Shown: piece by piece, positions 2,113-20,410 of the stretch
Position numbering within the stretch: position 1 is the stretch's first letter
Layout: each line of letters opens with the position of its first letter
Source of the DNA: a virus
Virus record (IMG/VR): IMGVR_UViG_3300008267_000501
Coordinates: 1-20,812 of that record
Length of the DNA: 20,812 bases
Strand: one strand, 5' to 3'
Notes under the pieces: model-generated
Told to the model about the DNA's origin: nothing
Seen by the model: the letters and a program-made list of their open reading frames with translations, nothing else
Databases searched by the model: none
Position numbers and translations under genes: made by a program

Positions 2113-4137
2113 ATGGCAGACTATTATGCCTTAGAAGATGCTCTTGCTGCTGGTCTTACTCCAGCAGAAATTGTTCCTGCCTTAGCAGATAGGAACAACT
2201 ATGACTATCAGGCTGCTCGTCAAGCAGGAGTTACTGATGATCAAATTATTGCTACCCTGATGGGAGAAACTTCTTTTACAGCAGCCATGAAGCGTTTCAT
2301 CAATGCTGGTGGCAGCAGTATTAAAGGGGCAGTAGACCTCTTCGGTGGCCTTGATAAAGAGAGAGCTTTAGCAGAACGAACAGCAGCACAGATTGCTTCT
2401 GCCAATGCTCCTGTTTCTGGCATGGTTGGTGAGTTTGCTGGCGCTATTGCAGACCCTGTTACAGCCCCTGCCTTTGCTCTTAAAGCCTTGAAGGGTGCAA
2501 CCCTTGTTGGCACTATGGCTAAGCAAGGCGCAGTGCAAGGAGCCACTGGTGGCTTCTTAGAGCCTGTCCTCACACCAGAAGAAAGCCGCTTGAAGAATAC
2601 CATTGTTGGTACTGCTGTCGGTACTGTCTTTGGTGCTGGCCTTGGTAAGGCAAGTGATGAGGTTATTAAGTTTCTTGATAACAGAGCCATCAAAGCAGCA
2701 AACACAGACACCACTAAAGCTGCCATTGATGATGTGGCTAAGTTTATTGATAACCCACCAAGCAAACAAGCAGCAGAGCTACAGGCACAAGCAGTTGATT
2801 ATAGTGTTCCTGCCTACTTACGTAAAGCAGAAGCTGAAGGCACTCCTGTTCCTGCTGTGCGTGAGCCTCTTGACCCTGTGCAAGCCAAGCTTGTTGAAGA
2901 CCGCATTGCTAAGACAGAGGCTGAGATTGCTAAGCATGAGGCAGACCTTGCCAATGTACAGAAGCAACAACCAGAGAAAGAGGTTGGTGACTTCCTTGGT
3001 TTAAAAAACCCAACTAAAAGACCAACAGAGAAGCAAGTAGCTGCTTTGTTCAAGGCTCCAGAAGGACAAGACCTTCCTGCTAAGTTTGGCCTTGTTGCTC
3101 CAACACCAGAAGCCCCTGCTAAGCAAGTGGCTGCTTTGTTTAAGAGTGCAGCCCCTAGTGAAGTTCCTGTTATCAAACAACAAATCGTTGAAGCTGCAAA
3201 GCAAGGAACAGCACAGCAATATTTAATTAGACAAATTGAAACCAAGAAGGCCGAGGTTGAAAGACTTAAGGCTGCTGTGTCCCCTGCCCCTAGAGAATTC
3301 CCAATACAAGTCGAGACAAGACAAGGAGTTTTGCCACAACAAGTGGCTGCTCGTGATGCTCGTGTACAACAAGTGTTGGAACGTACAGGCAGAGCAAAAC
3401 CAATGCCTCCAGAAGCCCCTAGAATGGCTCAGGAAGCCCCTGTTCAAGGGGTTCCTATGCCAACCCCTACGGAAGTACCTACTGCTCCTACAAGAGGCTT
3501 CCAAAGTGGTGGCTCTGCTGCCACCCCTAGAGAGCTTCTGTATGCTGAGAGCGTTCCTTTCCCTACCAATGCAGAGAAGCTGCTTACTGGTGGACAAACA
3601 CGTGGTGCTAACGTAGCCCCTGTCTCAGACAATGAACAATTGAATGATCTGTTCTCTAAGGCTGTTGGTGTCCTTGGTGCTAAGGGCAGACAACTGCGTG
3701 GACGTGGAGAGTTTGGTGGTAGCCTTGAAGGAACAGTGAAGGCTGGTCAGAAGGCTGCTGCTCGAATGGAAAGAGAAGAAGGCTCAATAGAAGATTGGGT
3801 ATTTAAACAGAATGATGATGGTACATTCCCTAACATCGACAAGAGTTGGAACAGGGCTGAAGTCGAAGCTTTCCGTCCTGTCTATGAAGAAGCTAGAGCC
3901 ACACTATCTGCAAACCTCGCTGAGATTAATCGCTTGCGTGATGCAGGAGAACTTACTGACGATGCTTTACAAACACTAACATACAGAAGCCAGCTACCAA
4001 TTGGTATTCTTGGTATCTATCAGGGACAGAGAACAAAAGCTTCTGACACCCTTAATGCTTTCAAGCTGGCTAAGTCACAGTTTGAAGATGGCAAAGAAGT
4101 TAAAGGACTATTTCAACCCGGTGTTGATTGTCAATAA
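2113..4137 (+). CDS. Large internal virion protein, N-terminal partner
   Basis: This 674-residue protein starts with a short helical module (AGLTPAEIVPALADR) that appears twice in variant form (AGVTDDQIIATLMG at about 39-52). Gly/Ala-rich hydrophobic helices follow (about 66-180), able to insert in a membrane, then a long Pro/Ala/Lys/Gln-rich linker (about 215-480) with an internal duplication, KQVAALFK, near residues 304 and 336. A folded helical C-terminus (about 500-674) carries IYQGQRTKASDTLNAFK. From memory, that last segment resembles a region that in other phages sits directly before the part encoded here by the next gene, so this may be half of a split large virion protein. The ATG follows the previous stop without a gap. 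An ejection role is inferred; no lytic transglycosylase motif is evident. Confidence 0.75.
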   Translation: MADYYALEDALAAGLTPAEIVPALADRNNYDYQAARQAGVTDDQIIATLMGETSFTAAMKRFINAGGSSIKGAVDLFGGLDKERALAERTAAQIASANAPVSGMVGEFAGAIADPVTAPAFALKALKGATLVGTMAKQGAVQGATGGFLEPVLTPEESRLKNTIVGTAVGTVFGAGLGKASDEVIKFLDNRAIKAANTDTTKAAIDDVAKFIDNPPSKQAAELQAQAVDYSVPAYLRKAEAEGTPVPAVREPLDPVQAKLVEDRIAKTEAEIAKHEADLANVQKQQPEKEVGDFLGLKNPTKRPTEKQVAALFKAPEGQDLPAKFGLVAPTPEAPAKQVAALFKSAAPSEVPVIKQQIVEAAKQGTAQQYLIRQIETKKAEVERLKAAVSPAPREFPIQVETRQGVLPQQVAARDARVQQVLERTGRAKPMPPEAPRMAQEAPVQGVPMPTPTEVPTAPTRGFQSGGSAATPRELLYAESVPFPTNAEKLLTGGQTRGANVAPVSDNEQLNDLFSKAVGVLGAKGRQLRGRGEFGGSLEGTVKAGQKAAARMEREEGSIEDWVFKQNDDGTFPNIDKSWNRAEVEAFRPVYEEARATLSANLAEINRLRDAGELTDDALQTLTYRSQLPIGILGIYQGQRTKASDTLNAFKLAKSQFEDGKEVKGLFQPGVDCQ

Positions 4138-6177: not shown

Positions 6178-6183
6178 AAAAAG

Positions 6184-6210
6184 AAAGGGGACTTAATAGT
6201 CCCCTTTTTT
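6184..6210. terminator. Bidirectional intrinsic terminator
   Basis: AAAGGGGACT (6184-6193) pairs with AGTCCCCTTT (6198-6207) around the loop TAAT, a perfect 10-bp stem. On the + strand it is followed by T residues through 6210; on the - strand the A-rich flank at 6178-6186 gives a U-rich tail. It lies between the convergent late (+) and replication (-) gene blocks and can serve both. The sequence evidence is strong; termination efficiency in either direction is inferred. Confidence 0.93.
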
Positions 6211-16814: not shown

Positions 16815-17253
16815 ATGAAGAACTGTAGTATATATCATACTTACGTAAGTCTGGCATTGACAAGACGTTCTCTATTATAGCCTTTGTATGGATTAAATCA
16901 TCATAATAGCCATCATCATACAGGCCACTGCCAAAGAAGAAACCGTTGCTTGTAGGCAACAAGTCCTTTGCCTTCTTTGTATGTGCAAGCACTTCATTAA
17001 CCAAAGCAAGCAGCTTCTCTAGGTCTGCAACAGACACAAGGTATTCGGCACAGTTGTCCACACCACCTTGGACGTTATCAACAAACCACTTGTGGATGTG
17101 GTTAGCCTTGCGCCAATAGCCAGCCTCATATGAAAGTTCTTTGACTGTCATACCGTTAACCTTCAGGTCTTCAAGCTGGTCACGCAAAGCCTTGCCTCCA
17201 TCATCGTAGTCATAGATGTACCGCTTAGCGGTCAAGTACATGTCTAGTCCCAT
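16810..17253 (-). CDS. Conserved phage protein, unknown function
   Basis: The 147-residue protein begins MGLDMYLTAKRYIYDYDD and contains EAGYWRKANHIHKWFVDNVQGG (about 45-64), then DNCAEYLVS, a long helix (about 78-95), PTSNGFFFGSGLYDDGYYDDL (about 101-120) and a terminal helix. I recognise this order (MGLDMYL start, YWRKANxIHxWF, G-F-F-F-G-S) as a widespread family in phages and some bacteria, without known activity. It is sometimes mislabelled with enzyme names in databases. AAGGGG upstream supports the start. Its stop codon is inside dyad site 4. It is the last gene of the early block before the replication promoter. Confidence 0.82.
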   Translation of the reverse strand: MGLDMYLTAKRYIYDYDDGGKALRDQLEDLKVNGMTVKELSYEAGYWRKANHIHKWFVDNVQGGVDNCAEYLVSVADLEKLLALVNEVLAHTKKAKDLLPTSNGFFFGSGLYDDGYYDDLIHTKAIIENVLSMPDLRKYDIYYSSSW

Positions 17254-17254
17254 T

Positions 17255-17356
17255 TCATTTCCCCTTTTGTTTAAAGAATTTAATTACAAGCAACCCAATT
17301 ATAAACCCAATTACATACACAAAGAATATACCAATGCCATCAACATTGTTCCGCAT
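17255..17356 (-). CDS. 33-residue single-pass membrane protein
   Basis: The frame encodes 33 residues: a polar start MRNNVDG, one hydrophobic helix (IGIFFVYVIGFIIGLLVI, about 8-25) and a basic end (KFFKQKGK), predicting an N-out/C-in single-pass topology. GGAGG six bases before the ATG is a strong ribosome binding site; the first 17 nt overlap the upstream gene, and the stop is just before the next ATG at 17253. It is too short for usual ORF cut-offs but fills what would otherwise be a gap. Function unknown; holin-like or membrane-modifying roles are possible. Confidence 0.72.
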   Translation of the reverse strand: MRNNVDGIGIFFVYVIGFIIGLLVIKFFKQKGK

Positions 17357-17720
17357 TACCAGCCTCCACAAATGGAATGCCATTATGAATTGCCATTCTA
17401 GCAAACCTAGCCTTATGCACAGGCTTACCGAGTGGTGTTACAAATGAAGAGAACACGTATGGATTGTACAACACAGAAGTCCATTTCACCTCTTCCTTAG
17501 TCCAATCATAAGAGGATGTCAGGAAACCGACAACCCCTGCATGTACGTTCTTGCGTCTCTCACGCACCACACGCTGTCTTCCAGCCTCTGACACCTTGAA
17601 GACAGGGCTGTCTATAGCCAGCATTGTTCTGTGCCCTATAACCCTACCCTTGTCCTTACCTTCCAATGCCTTCACAGAGAAGACACGCTTGTGCAAATTG
17701 AAATATACAAACACTTTCAT
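17340..17720 (-). CDS. Conserved phage protein with basic centre
   Basis: The 126-residue protein begins MKVFVYFNLHKRVFSVKALEG. Then come GRVIGHRTMLAIDSPVFKVSEAGRQRVVRERRKNVHAGVVG (about 25-65), which I recognise as a conserved block in small proteins of many phages, and a beta-rich C-terminal half with YNPYVFSSFV. The Arg-rich helix (GRQRVVRERRK) suggests nucleic acid or nucleotide contact, but no function is established. The start overlaps the preceding stop as ATGA. It lies in the early block and is probably cytoplasmic. Confidence 0.8.
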   Translation of the reverse strand: MKVFVYFNLHKRVFSVKALEGKDKGRVIGHRTMLAIDSPVFKVSEAGRQRVVRERRKNVHAGVVGFLTSSYDWTKEEVKWTSVLYNPYVFSSFVTPLGKPVHKARFARMAIHNGIPFVEAGNAEQC

Positions 17721-17920: not shown

Positions 17921-18195
17921 GCTGCTTTCCTCATCAAAATCTCTAGGAAGTTCTCCCCAATGTAGGGAAGCTTAACCCAAACCTTACCCTGCCGCTTACC
18001 CTGAAAATCATACATGACTTCTTCATAGCCAGCAATGTCGTGGGCATAGATGCTGCCCATCTCTGTATACGTGCCAAAGACTGTAGCCATGCGTATGCTG
18101 CCACGCTTGTTGTCTTCAAGCACAGCCTCCCATCCATTACGCAGGACAACACGTGTCCCCTTCTTCAATGCATTTGTTTGTACATACTTGCTCAT
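17917..18195 (-). CDS. Conserved small phage protein, beta-rich
   Basis: The 92-residue protein contains KKGTRVVLRNGWEAVLEDN (about 11-29), then MATVFGTYTEMGSIYAHDI (about 36-54), followed by a C-terminal stretch with Gln and Lys. The first block looks like a small beta-barrel of SH3 or KOW type, and the wording RNGWEA...TEMGSIYAHDI recurs in many phage genomes. Function is not established. It overlaps the Gp88-like gene by ATGA at its start and the 67-residue gene at its end. Confidence 0.78.
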   Translation of the reverse strand: MSKYVQTNALKKGTRVVLRNGWEAVLEDNKRGSIRMATVFGTYTEMGSIYAHDIAGYEEVMYDFQGKRQGKVWVKLPYIGENFLEILMRKAA

Positions 18196-18824
18196 ACCAT
18201 CTCCTTGATTTGAAAAACCTTAGCCATCTTACGTGAATGTGCCACATATGCAACAACCTTCACATCCTTATTCCAACAGGCAGTGCATGTGTCACACTTG
18301 CCAGCTTGCAAACTACTAGGGCATACGTGCACACCACGTCTATGCTCATGCGTTTTGATAACCATTGATGTGGTTGTCCCTGCTATCTGCTCTTCTACAT
18401 TGTCGGCACTGAGGCGCACGACAACATTAGGCAAACTGTCCAAAGCCCCTAAGACATGGGCATACTTGTCAAACTTGTGCATACGTGTGGGCAGCCAATG
18501 CTTGACATGCGGGGTGAGCCTACAAACTTCATGGATTTTCCATGCCAAGTCAACAGAATAAATATCTCCGCTGTCAAACCATCGAAATTTCTTCTGCTTT
18601 GACAAAGCCTTGACCATGCGAGCCACCCAATCATCTTCTTGCCAGTCTTCTTTGTTGTTTTTACGCAACGAAATAGCATCAGGCATGTGATAAAACCCCT
18701 GTGTGGCATAACAACCTTGACAAACCTCGACAAGCTTGCCATCTTTGCCAATGCTCCCTTGACAAGTCTCAAGGGCTTGCAAGCTCCAGCTAAAACAGCC
18801 GAGCTTTGATGTACGACTAAGCAT
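18192..18824 (-). CDS. Gp88-family Cys-rich phage protein
   Basis: The 210-residue protein carries C10 and C21 (LGCFSWSL...CQGS), CQGCYATQGFYHMP (35-48), then FRWFDSGDIYS (about 81-91), HVKHWLPTRMHKF and PNVVVRLSADN. It ends with a cysteine cluster VCPSSLQAGKCDTCTACW. This order matches the phage 'gene product 88' family as I remember it. The cysteines suggest metal or iron-sulfur binding and the SGD and TRMHK blocks suggest a barrel-like enzyme, perhaps distantly like radical-SAM proteins; the activity is unproven. GGAGG before the ATG is a strong ribosome binding site. It is the largest early protein, so it is probably important soon after infection. Confidence 0.82.
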   Translation of the reverse strand: MLSRTSKLGCFSWSLQALETCQGSIGKDGKLVEVCQGCYATQGFYHMPDAISLRKNNKEDWQEDDWVARMVKALSKQKKFRWFDSGDIYSVDLAWKIHEVCRLTPHVKHWLPTRMHKFDKYAHVLGALDSLPNVVVRLSADNVEEQIAGTTTSMVIKTHEHRRGVHVCPSSLQAGKCDTCTACWNKDVKVVAYVAHSRKMAKVFQIKEMV

Positions 18825-18903
18825 AATATGCCTCCAAAAATAACATTGTCCAAACCAGCACCAATAAAACGGTGCATGTAACTGTGAATTGTCTATCTGT
18901 CAT
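18817..18903 (-). CDS. 28-residue single-pass membrane peptide
   Basis: The frame encodes MTDRQFTVTCTVLLVLVWTM plus LFLEAYYA: a short polar start and one hydrophobic helix of about 19 residues. AAGGAG six bases before the ATG is an excellent ribosome binding site, and the stop overlaps the start of the Gp88-like gene by 8 nt. The longer open frame up to 19041 is not used because it would run through the hairpin element at 18918-18958. Function unknown; small membrane peptides of this kind often alter host membranes or exclude other phages. Confidence 0.65.
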   Translation of the reverse strand: MTDRQFTVTCTVLLVLVWTMLFLEAYYA

Positions 18904-18917
18904 TTGATGCTCCTTGC

Positions 18918-18958
18918 TGGCAGGATTGCCACATAAACCCACCATTGATGGGCTTATG
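18918..18958 (-). repeat. Tandem-hairpin RNA element, copy 1
   Basis: In the leftward transcript, a 12-bp stem with loop AAU (18958-18932, containing two G-U pairs) is followed at once by the small hairpin UGGCA-AUCC-UGCCA (18931-18918). The element lies 7 nt after the stop of the 35-residue gene and 2 nt before the ribosome binding site of the 28-residue gene. There is no U tract, so it is not an intrinsic terminator. It is one of three copies; see the findings for covariation. Confidence 0.8.
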
Positions 18959-18965
18959 AAGTTTC

Positions 18966-19073
18966 CTACGACATACGCTCTACTAGATAGCCCTCTTCCT
19001 TGAAAACAACAGCCTCGGTGACAGGAACATTTTCTATCCAACGATTTAGGTTAGGCATAAATACACGATACAT
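18966..19073 (-). CDS. 35-residue protein, unknown function
   Basis: The frame encodes MYRVFMPNLNRWIENVPVTE followed by AVVFKEEGYLVERMS. GGAG at about seven bases from the ATG at 19073 supports this start; the open frame continues to 19196 but only through hairpin element copy 2 and into the upstream gene. The composition is compact and mixed, with no membrane helix. It is flanked on both sides by tandem-hairpin elements, a strong sign of a separately controlled cistron. No family is recognised. Confidence 0.6.
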   Translation of the reverse strand: MYRVFMPNLNRWIENVPVTEAVVFKEEGYLVERMS

Positions 19074-19087
19074 AATGGTCTCCAAAC

Positions 19088-19131
19088 TGGCAGGATTGCC
19101 ACATATAAGCCCACATTGTAGACCTATATGT
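19088..19131 (-). repeat. Tandem-hairpin RNA element, copy 2
   Basis: In the leftward transcript, 14 consecutive pairs (four of them G-U) close the same AAU loop (19131-19101), followed by UGGCA-AUCC-UGCCA (19101-19088). The lower stem sequence differs from copies 1 and 3, yet pairing is complete. It starts 9 nt after the stop of the 82-residue gene and ends about 4 nt before the next ribosome binding site. Confidence 0.82.
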
Positions 19132-19140
19132 AACTCCCTA

Positions 19141-19389
19141 TCAAATTGCAATTGCTTGCTTCTGTACTGACAGGCGCTTTCTGTCACGATGAACATGCAC
19201 CACAGCAGAAGGGCTAACCTTTACAATCTGCCCACCACGTGCCAGCTTAACTGACACCTTGAAAAACCCACGACTGACAATCTGCCCATTGTGGCGATGT
19301 CCCTTCATGTCATAAACCGTCAAAAATCTATTGCCATGGTTAGCAACAAATTGCTTCGCTACAAAAAAAGCCTTGATTGAATCAAACAT
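19141..19389 (-). CDS. Small basic protein, unknown function
   Basis: The 82-residue basic protein begins MFDSIKAFFVAKQFVANHGN and has a beta-rich middle (RFLTVYDMKGHRHNGQIVSRGFFKVSVKLARGG) and a basic C-terminus (VHVHRDRKRLSVQKQAIAI). The small beta-barrel look plus basic charge would suit nucleic acid binding, but no motif is decisive. GGGAG before the ATG supports the start. It is the first gene after the consensus promoter at 19471-19498, with dyad site 5 in its leader, so its expression is likely strong and regulated. As an early, basic protein it is a candidate regulator; this is inference. Confidence 0.72.
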   Translation of the reverse strand: MFDSIKAFFVAKQFVANHGNRFLTVYDMKGHRHNGQIVSRGFFKVSVKLARGGQIVKVSPSAVVHVHRDRKRLSVQKQAIAI

Positions 19390-19405
19390 AAAAACTCCCT
19401 TAAAA

Positions 19406-19423
19406 AGTTACTAACAAGTTACC
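19406..19423. promoter_or_regulatory. 18-bp dyad site 5, in an early leader
   Basis: AGTTACTAACAAGTTACC, read on the - strand as GGTAACTTGTTAGTAACT. It lies about 40-60 nt downstream of the start site expected from the promoter at 19471-19498 and 16 nt upstream of the 82-residue gene, a position where a bound protein would block elongation. One of seven family members. Confidence 0.6.
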
Positions 19424-19470
19424 TACAAAGCGTAGGGAAAACCCTGGTTTTTCTCTATGCTCTGAAGACC

Positions 19471-19498
19471 ATTATACAGGCATCGAAGGGGCTGTCAA
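19471..19498 (-). promoter_or_regulatory. Strong sigma-70 promoter, early
   Basis: On the - strand TTGACA (19498-19493) and TATAAT (19476-19471), both perfect consensus, are 16 bp apart. Initiation is expected near 19464, giving a leader of about 75 nt to the ATG at 19389. The box order lies in the gap right after the 185-residue gene, so it boosts the rest of the early operon. The leader holds an A/T palindrome (19438-19451) and dyad site 5. Confidence 0.87.
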
Positions 19499-19517
19499 CC
19501 CCTCCGATTCTGTCTCA

Positions 19518-20075
19518 TTATACCTTCTCGTTGATTTTAGCCATCGCTTGAAGAATCAATTCTGAGGCCATCTTATAACCCTTCTCATAGCAGAGCTGTT
19601 GAATTATCTCTAGGTTATTTAACATTTTATCTTCATCGGAGAATGTAACCTCTTCGATACCCTCTTCTCCCTCTTCGCTATCCTCTTTTGGGGCTTTGGT
19701 TACGTTACCCTCTTCATCGATAACCTTTGAACCTGATTCTAGGCCTCTTAAATCTTTGACTAGGCTTTGCACTGACTCATAATTGTCTATGATATTGAAC
19801 AGGGTTTGGCGTGTTGCCGATTCGCTGGCATGGTCGCATATCTTCTTAAATTCGCTTTTTCTTACTTTTGCAGTATTCGCATTGTAGAGCGATTTTGCTT
19901 GAGTACCATATCCTTCAATCATTGCTTGGTACTCTGCCTTATTTTCTACAGTGAAGACCCCTATAGTTTCTTTAAGGGTCTTAAGAAGCTTACCGTTTAC
20001 GTTAGCCTGTTCACATGCGAAGGCCGCGCCTAGTGCTTCAGGGCTTGTGCCCGCTGTTGTCTTTGTCTTTGCCAT
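19518..20075 (-). CDS. Acidic early protein, unknown function
   Basis: The 185-residue protein begins MAKTKTTAGTSPEALGAAFA at the ATG preceded by CGGAG; the open frame extends 14 codons further into hairpin element copy 3, which is not likely coding. The N-terminal half is helical (to about residue 110). A highly acidic linker (about 125-155, with KEDSEEGEEGIEEV) and a final helical part (EIIQQLCYEKGYKMASELIL) follow. No motif is recognised. Its position as second gene after the control region and its charge resemble host-takeover or DNA-mimic type early proteins, but this is speculation. It is followed within 20 nt by a new promoter. Confidence 0.78.
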   Translation of the reverse strand: MAKTKTTAGTSPEALGAAFACEQANVNGKLLKTLKETIGVFTVENKAEYQAMIEGYGTQAKSLYNANTAKVRKSEFKKICDHASESATRQTLFNIIDNYESVQSLVKDLRGLESGSKVIDEEGNVTKAPKEDSEEGEEGIEEVTFSDEDKMLNNLEIIQQLCYEKGYKMASELILQAMAKINEKV

Positions 20076-20100
20076 TGTGTTTCTCCGTTTAGGTTGGTTT

Positions 20101-20139
20101 TGGCAGTATCGCCACATAAGCCCTCATTCAAGGGCTTAT
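20101..20139 (-). repeat. Tandem-hairpin RNA element, copy 3
   Basis: In the leftward transcript, a 10-bp stem AUAAGCCCUU/GAGGGCUUAU with loop GAAU (20139-20116) is followed by UGGCG-AUAC-UGCCA (20114-20101), where the closing A-U of the other copies has become G-U. It starts 5 nt after the stop of the 57-residue gene; the next ribosome binding site is about 16 nt further. Same architecture as copies 1 and 2. Confidence 0.8.
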
Positions 20140-20144
20140 ATAGT

Positions 20145-20318
20145 TTACTGAGGTTTATTTGCTTTTACAGCGAAATATTCAATTATGAATTGTGGTGCCT
20201 CTACTTCTTGTGCAAGGGTAACAGTTGCCCAGTATTCCTCGGTTGTCATGGATGCAGTTGTTTTATGCTCCATTCGAATAAGTGCTGCCAGTATTTGCTC
20301 TTTCTGCTCTTTCGTCAT
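20145..20318 (-). CDS. 57-residue early protein, unknown function
   Basis: The frame encodes 57 residues beginning MTKEQKEQILAALIRMEHKT, then SMTTEEYWATVTLAQEVEAPQ and a C-terminal IIEYFAVKANKPQ. It looks all-helical and mildly acidic. AAGGAG eight bases before the ATG is a good ribosome binding site. It is the first gene downstream of the right-hand control region, with dyad site 6 between promoter and ribosome binding site, so it is likely the first protein made from this operon. A small helical first-gene product next to operators could be the regulator itself; no DNA-binding motif is visible, so this is only a suggestion. Confidence 0.75.
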   Translation of the reverse strand: MTKEQKEQILAALIRMEHKTTASMTTEEYWATVTLAQEVEAPQFIIEYFAVKANKPQ

Positions 20319-20379: not shown

Positions 20380-20410
20380 ATTCTAGCAGAGTATCGGTGC
20401 TACGTGTCAA
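20380..20410 (-). promoter_or_regulatory. Putative sigma-70 promoter, first early gene
   Basis: On the - strand TTGACA (20410-20405) and TAGAAT (20385-20380), with a spacer of 19 bp, longer than the ideal 17. The boxes match consensus in 6/6 and 5/6 positions. It points at the 57-residue gene and lies between dyad sites 6 and 7. The long spacer may mean that it needs an activator; this is inferred. Confidence 0.6.

Follow-up and report, generated by a model that had tools for sequence, protein, structure and literature searches.

The closest described counterparts of the RNA element reported here are the RNase III sites of the T7 early mRNA (R0.3, R0.5, R1, R1.1 and R1.3), which are located between cistrons of a host-transcribed early region, in the interval from a stop codon to the next ribosome binding site. 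R1.1, for example, is used by RNase III in vivo and lies between genes 1.0 and 1.1 (PMC6121014). The T7 sites form irregular hairpins in which a small asymmetric internal loop separates a lower helix of some 5 bp from an upper stem of at least 9 bp: R1 has a 2x3 loop with 5 bp below and 9 bp above it, the 9-bp stem of R0.3 stands on a 2x3 loop too, and the internal loop of R1.1 is asymmetric as well. In the computed folds, the 3' side of the loop coincides with, or is adjacent to, the T7 cut positions, which we take to be 890, 1468, 3138, 5887 and 6448. The put RNAs of HK022, HK75, HK639, phiEt88 and CobraSix are likewise part of phage early transcripts; their GGCAAU occupies the 3' strand of an internal loop, and a lower helix that covaries comes after it. 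Palindromes between genes are also seen among intrinsic terminators and boxC/REP-like intergenic repeats.

These traits recur in an element that is present in three copies (W1 to W3) in the window, i.e., the whole stretch of 20,812 nt analysed here, a 20.8-kb phage fragment whose DNA polymerase is nearest to that of the Pelagibacter phages HTVC103P/104P (47.5% identity). The copies occupy the gaps 20144-20076 (W3), 19140-19074 (W2) and 18965-18904 (W1) of the leftward-transcribed early region, and their 3' ends fall a few bases ahead of the next ribosome binding site. The element is a real, conserved folded RNA that is new to Rfam and, in pattern and covariance-model searches, occurs in about ten distinct phage lineages. 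By analogy with T7, it might be an RNase III-type processing boundary that divides early cistrons and contains a built-in alternative fold; we assign this reading a probability of roughly 0.45. The copies (with bit scores for two covariance models, R1 and R2) and their surroundings are:

20380-20410, minus strand: possible promoter TTGACA-19-TAGAAT upstream of W3, with a spacer above the usual length
20145-20318, minus strand: early gene upstream of W3 (57 aa, without Pfam match)
20147-20145, minus strand: stop codon UAA of the gene before W3, within the outer helix
20100-20150, minus strand: element copy W3 (R1 72.7 bits, R2 66.7 bits, fold z -6.27)
20150-20146 (CAGUA) with 20108-20104 (UACUG), minus strand: outer helix of W3, enclosing the inner stem and loop
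20114-20101, minus strand: alternative mini-hairpin of W3
19518-20075, minus strand: early gene downstream of W3 (185 aa from ATG; 199-aa reading without Pfam match)
19498-19471, minus strand: host-type, sigma70-like promoter TTGACA-16-TATAAT (12/12), with the W2 core about 400 nt downstream
19141-19389, minus strand: early gene upstream of W2 (82 aa, without Pfam match)
19143-19141, minus strand: stop codon UGA directly ahead of W2
19087-19140, minus strand: element copy W2 (R1 43.4 bits, R2 30.1 bits, fold z -4.70)
19140-19136 (UAGGG) with 19095-19091 (UCCUG), minus strand: outer helix of W2, whose inner stem contains G-U pairs
19101-19088, minus strand: alternative mini-hairpin of W2
18966-19073, minus strand: small early gene (MYRVF...) in the interval between W2 and W1
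18968-18966, minus strand: stop codon UAG before W1, inside the element, where it begins the outer helix
18917-18968, minus strand: element copy W1 (R1 77.2 bits, R2 66.7 bits, fold z -5.15)
18968-18964 (UAGGA) with 18925-18921 (UCCUG), minus strand: outer helix of W1
18931-18918, minus strand: alternative mini-hairpin of W1
18817-18903, minus strand: early gene downstream of W1 (28 aa, MTDRQFTVTC...)
18192-18824, minus strand: GP88-family gene (Pfam PF17338), which overlaps and follows the 28-aa gene
16786-16758, minus strand: sigma70-like promoter (11/12)

Further along the same strand, the early gene at 17340-17720 (minus strand) has a Pfam match to the mycobacteriophage L5 gp82 family (PF25735).

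As a preliminary description of this DNA had stated, the copies fill all non-overlapping early gaps that are free of a promoter, the remaining two gaps being held by the 12/12 and 11/12 promoters. It had also set the copies apart from intrinsic terminators, in agreement with what is found: no U tract follows the stem, and W1 to W3 are absent among the terminator-like sites of the window. Within the early operon of the window, there is no convincing intrinsic terminator except at the operon end. The junction of the leftward early operon and the rightward structural genes, at 6181-6210, is marked by a strong terminator-like hairpin that is bidirectional, having T runs on both strands. The element differs from terminators and intergenic repeats also in its distribution: in an R2 scan of 369 host-class genomes (the class of Methylovorus) under stricter filters, only a Methylovorus prophage was found, and none of the other 368 genomes gave a match.

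The transcribed strands of W1, W2 and W3 fold with -25.2, -26.3 and -23.9 kcal/mol, and none of 200 dinucleotide shuffles, to which the z-scores listed above refer, folds as well; the three minus-strand copies are real. The opposite strands fold much more poorly (z -1.3, 0.0 and -4.0), as expected if G-U pairs of the transcript are maintained. While the preliminary description had proposed two successive hairpins, the minimum-energy structure (fold A) is a single long hairpin, since the upstream flank pairs inside the claimed second hairpin. Fold A is composed of a 5-bp outer helix, a 2x3 internal loop with C-R-A on its 3' side and an inner stem of about 14 bp, the whole element measuring about 52 nt; its ensemble frequency in the window copies is 0.51-0.72. 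Every lineage has, some 6-9 nt ahead of the inner stem, a pentamer that complements the loop and 3' side of the second hairpin, and the paired strands are CAGUA/UACUG in W3, CAUUA/UAAUG in L016, UAAAA/UUUUG in L015, CAGGG/UCCUG in L009, UACUA/UAGUG in L198a and CGUGAU/AUCAUG in PP16.

This pairing was examined by a swap test, in which the flank of each lineage was scored against the 3' hexamers of all lineages (17 lineage representatives, inner-stem starts placed by hand). The lineages' own pairings total 79, as compared to a mean of 54.6 and a maximum of 74 after permutation (0 of 100,000 equal); when each hexamer type is represented by a single lineage, 6 of 362,880 permutations are as good. 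In an alignment of 12 diverse sequences, whose outer helix was trimmed by eye (the swap test is independent of this trimming), fold A has 93.9% standard pairs, eight pairs with double changes and 33 cells altered on both sides, versus a shuffled mean of 11.9 and 3-5 in slid controls. Its covariation score is 0.566 versus 0.284 for shuffled and 0.07-0.10 for slid alignments, and the outer helix is 93.3% paired, with double changes in two of its five pairs. Covariation of both helices, outer and inner, extends over about ten phage lineages. Compensating changes and G-U pairs had been claimed from the window alone and are borne out, and selection at the RNA level is strongly supported, as the helices covary and the transcribed strand folds best. 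Of the two-hairpin architecture, the inner stem and, as a competing fold, the mini-hairpin persist; the description was incomplete, the outer helix making one long hairpin. RNAalifold prefers the two-hairpin form on close relatives, but as the sole fold it is ruled out, because the loop of the second hairpin covaries with the upstream flank.

The same data bear on the idea that the copies have no function as RNA and are either dispersed DNA elements or DNA palindromes (TGGCA-N4-TGCCA) that bind a protein. We regard this as hardly credible: the core is palindromic in most copies and the window copies are alike, but there is covariation between the palindrome's loop and the upstream flank, G-U pairs are confined to the transcribed strand, the orientation is fixed with the genes, and the stem sequences differ.

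A second structure (fold B) consists of the inner stem plus a GGC/GCC mini-hairpin. It is mutually exclusive with fold A, and for most members the energy gap between the two is about 0-5 kcal/mol, so that the RNA is predicted to be bistable, with fold A favoured in the window copies. The mini-hairpin shows no double change in the 12-sequence alignment; outside this alignment, its outer pair has changed from U-A to G-C in L079b and L198b, and the opposing base of fold A is altered as well. The near-invariant core of the element is GGCRAU-NN-(U)GCC. The motif UGGCR-N4-UGCCA given in the preliminary description thus holds for this core, whereas its closing U-A pair is loose (UGCCU, UGCCG and GGGC..GCCC occur). 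GGC, R, UG and CC pair in one or both folds, and this double constraint may explain much of their invariance; the near-invariance of A45 and U46 of GGCRAU is not accounted for by pairing alone. Core conservation is partly built in, because members were found by patterns containing that core, a circularity from which the covariation of the outer helix is exempt.

Two exclusive folds could constitute a translation-responsive or ligand-free RNA switch that controls the translation or stability of the next gene, the decision being made by a ribosome at the stop codon in the outer strand. The small energy difference between the folds would suit such a device, as would the covariation of fold A alongside the invariant GGC/GCC of fold B with its U-A to G-C exchange in L079b and L198b. 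So would the layout: 19 of 21 members have a stop codon at -12 to +3 relative to the outer helix, and in most the next ribosome binding site comes a few nucleotides past the element. However, the genes downstream differ among phages, which makes gene-specific control unlikely; the backing for fold B is invariance, GGC/GCC being without double change; and L009 has no coding stop near the helix, nor was one identified in PPWS2. On balance, a switch of this kind appears rather unlikely.

The element was recovered in about ten lineages by patterns and by covariance models, the latter approach having been proposed in the preliminary description. An IMG/VR scan for GGGCTTATGTGGCRNNNNTGCCA returned ten stretches, and all ten have the element in a structured gap. 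Lineages were added by wider patterns, by R1 and R2, whose E-values are rough, and by blastn; the complete lineage count lies beyond these searches. Carriers comprise close GP88-bearing freshwater relatives of the window, L015 together with L079, L009, L016, L033, G009/L110 and L198 (among them several unrelated metagenomic phages), a prophage of Methylovorus sp. MM2 (L010), and the Pectobacterium phages PP16, MA2, CX5, PPWS2 and Irene (Kotilaviruses, Corkvirinae). The window and G009 have three copies each, L079 and L198 have two, and most genomes have one, so the threefold pattern noted at first holds for the window and G009 but not for most related genomes.

Several searches were negative. 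A scan of 18900-20150 with the Rfam 15 covariance models gave no match even at E up to 5, R1 and R2 found nothing in T7, phiKMV, SP6, LUZ100, HTVC103P, CRP-125, Lo5R7ANS or S2B, and blastn of the L110 and L016 copies against phages was blank. The pattern GTGGCGAT..GGAG matched more than 80 loci in viral contigs, none of which was confirmed by R2. Four loci with R1 E of about 0.05 (L066, L055, L051 and L069) were rejected as members, being without the inner stem or the flank pairing of the family. No account of the element was found in open-licence papers.

The carriers belong to different groups and include phages with and without a single-subunit RNA polymerase. Four near-full-length relatives of the window (G005, G006, G007 and G008, 38-42 kb) lack this enzyme (PF00940) and are thus probably reliant on host RNA polymerase throughout; the Kotilaviruses and the Methylovorus prophage, which also carry the element, differ from them in this respect. 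The genes downstream of the element differ between phages, and adjacent genes are not common to the carriers. Protein operators typically have invariant internal-loop bases beside a ribosome binding site, and so does the element; it could therefore be the operator of an RNA-binding protein encoded by each carrier phage, an option that the preliminary description had offered. Given the variety of carrier groups, with or without their own polymerase, and the lack of shared neighbouring genes, we find this highly doubtful. Different genes in different groups, with no shared regulator known, point instead to a host factor.

If that factor were RNase III, fold A would be its substrate, and the enzyme would cleave the 3' strand of the internal loop (GGCRA^U), in the manner seen for the T7 early mRNA. 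The predicted sites are:

20109^20108, minus strand: RNase III-type cut in W3, GGCRA^U, predicted by T7 analogy
19096^19095, minus strand: RNase III-type cut in W2, GGCRA^U, predicted by T7 analogy
18926^18925, minus strand: RNase III-type cut in W1, in the 3' strand of the internal loop, GGCRA^U, predicted by T7 analogy

Such a cut would separate the early cistrons; the upstream message would end in a stable hairpin, and the downstream message would have its ribosome binding site freed. More speculatively, the mini-hairpin might represent an off-state, adopted while the outer strand is covered by a ribosome that terminates at the upstream stop codon, in which case upstream translation would set whether the RNA is cut or uncut. 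The modelled anatomy fits a T7-like processing boundary with an alternative fold added. The T7 analogy drawn in the preliminary description thus stands as regards the intercistronic early position and the R0.3/R1 shape, and remains a prediction as regards cleavage.

Other features differ between the two systems. The T7 sites have their upper-stem sequence in common and vary in the loop, whereas in the element the stems vary and the loop strand GGCRAU-NN-UGCC is near-invariant; a conserved competing mini-hairpin is peculiar to the element. R2 misses the T7 sites, and homology to them by sequence is ruled out, R1 and R2 being blank in T7. Against processing by RNase III, it can be held that A45, U46 and most of GGCRAUNNUGCC are near-invariant, although the enzyme does not depend on a particular sequence; the constraint imposed by two folds explains most of these bases, except A45-U46. 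The usual single copy per genome also argues against this reading, as T7 has several sites. Moreover, a cut at C-R-A would destroy the mini-hairpin, whose conservation would then be unexplained unless it is an off-state, and helix shape is generic, so that likeness to the T7 sites is weak evidence of a common enzyme.

A host factor of another type would be RNA polymerase itself, bound by the nascent element to prevent pausing or termination in the manner of the HK022 put RNAs. The invariant GGC(R)AU corresponds to the GGCAAU of putL stem II and occupies the same spot, on the 3' side of the internal loop under the upper stem; residues 59-64 of putL are the centre of RNA polymerase contact, and A64 is essential. 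In addition, the element usually occurs once per genome in the early region, and in the window, L079, G005 and G007 a host-type promoter precedes it by about 200-400 nt (the spacing of about 400 nt seen for W2 recurs in the relatives G005 and G007). For comparison, HK022 putL was placed via the residues named in PMC9378689 (22 of 22 matched), and a put covariance model (R3) was built from seven puts. R3 finds HK022 putL (96.4 bits) and putR (57.9 bits), but no element at E up to 10; conversely, R1 and R2 do not find putL or putR. The element lacks the put-invariant stem I (GAACGGC..GUCGG) and the GGCG strand, has a longer upper stem and is intercistronic. Membership of the put family is therefore ruled out, GGCAAU being the one feature in agreement, though an action on RNA polymerase could remain. 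Striking as it is, the match covers six bases and is weak, and the early operon of the window has no convincing intrinsic terminator to overcome before its end, so that we consider anti-pausing or antitermination clearly unlikely. In HK022 (L115), a GGCAATCATGC motif lies in a small palindrome just downstream of Q, near 16848 on the minus strand (R2 E 0.5); this weak match is probably due to chance.

Elements of these proposals can be combined. The element may be a hitherto undescribed bistable RNA that unrelated phages of Proteobacteria have in common and that is read by a host factor, with its fold chosen by the ribosome terminating at the stop codon in the outer helix, so that translation of one early cistron would be coupled to processing, transcription or translation of the next; we see this as possible, if somewhat unlikely. 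In any case, a covarying structured RNA family absent from Rfam is present in phages with little else in common, of which two, the Pectobacterium phages PP16 and CX5, have laboratory hosts. The family makes testable whether T7-like intercistronic processing is general in early phage operons, and whether sequence-specific early phage RNA elements exist beside nut and put.

Relatives whose GP88 shows 51-62% identity lack the element. Six of the eight such relatives examined have, close to the corresponding position, one long hairpin each whose sequence (CUAGGGUUUUACCUAAU...GUAGAAUCCUAG and variants) is unrelated, and a hairpin of different sequence in this position favours a factor or enzyme that reads structure. 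In L134, a hairpin CCTAGGGTTTTACCTAAT...GTAGAATCCTAGAGTAT lies upstream of GP88 at about 3420-3445, with variants in L135, L136, L137, L139 and L140; it occurs once per contig, in the interval from a stop codon to the next ribosome binding site, and shows apparent compensating changes. In G009, two of the copies (L164 200-253 and L165 1530-1583) are preceded by a gene end that is identical to the letter, and the stems of the elements differ. To judge by this arrangement, it is as if a unit of gene plus element had been duplicated, with the stems then drifting while their pairing was retained.
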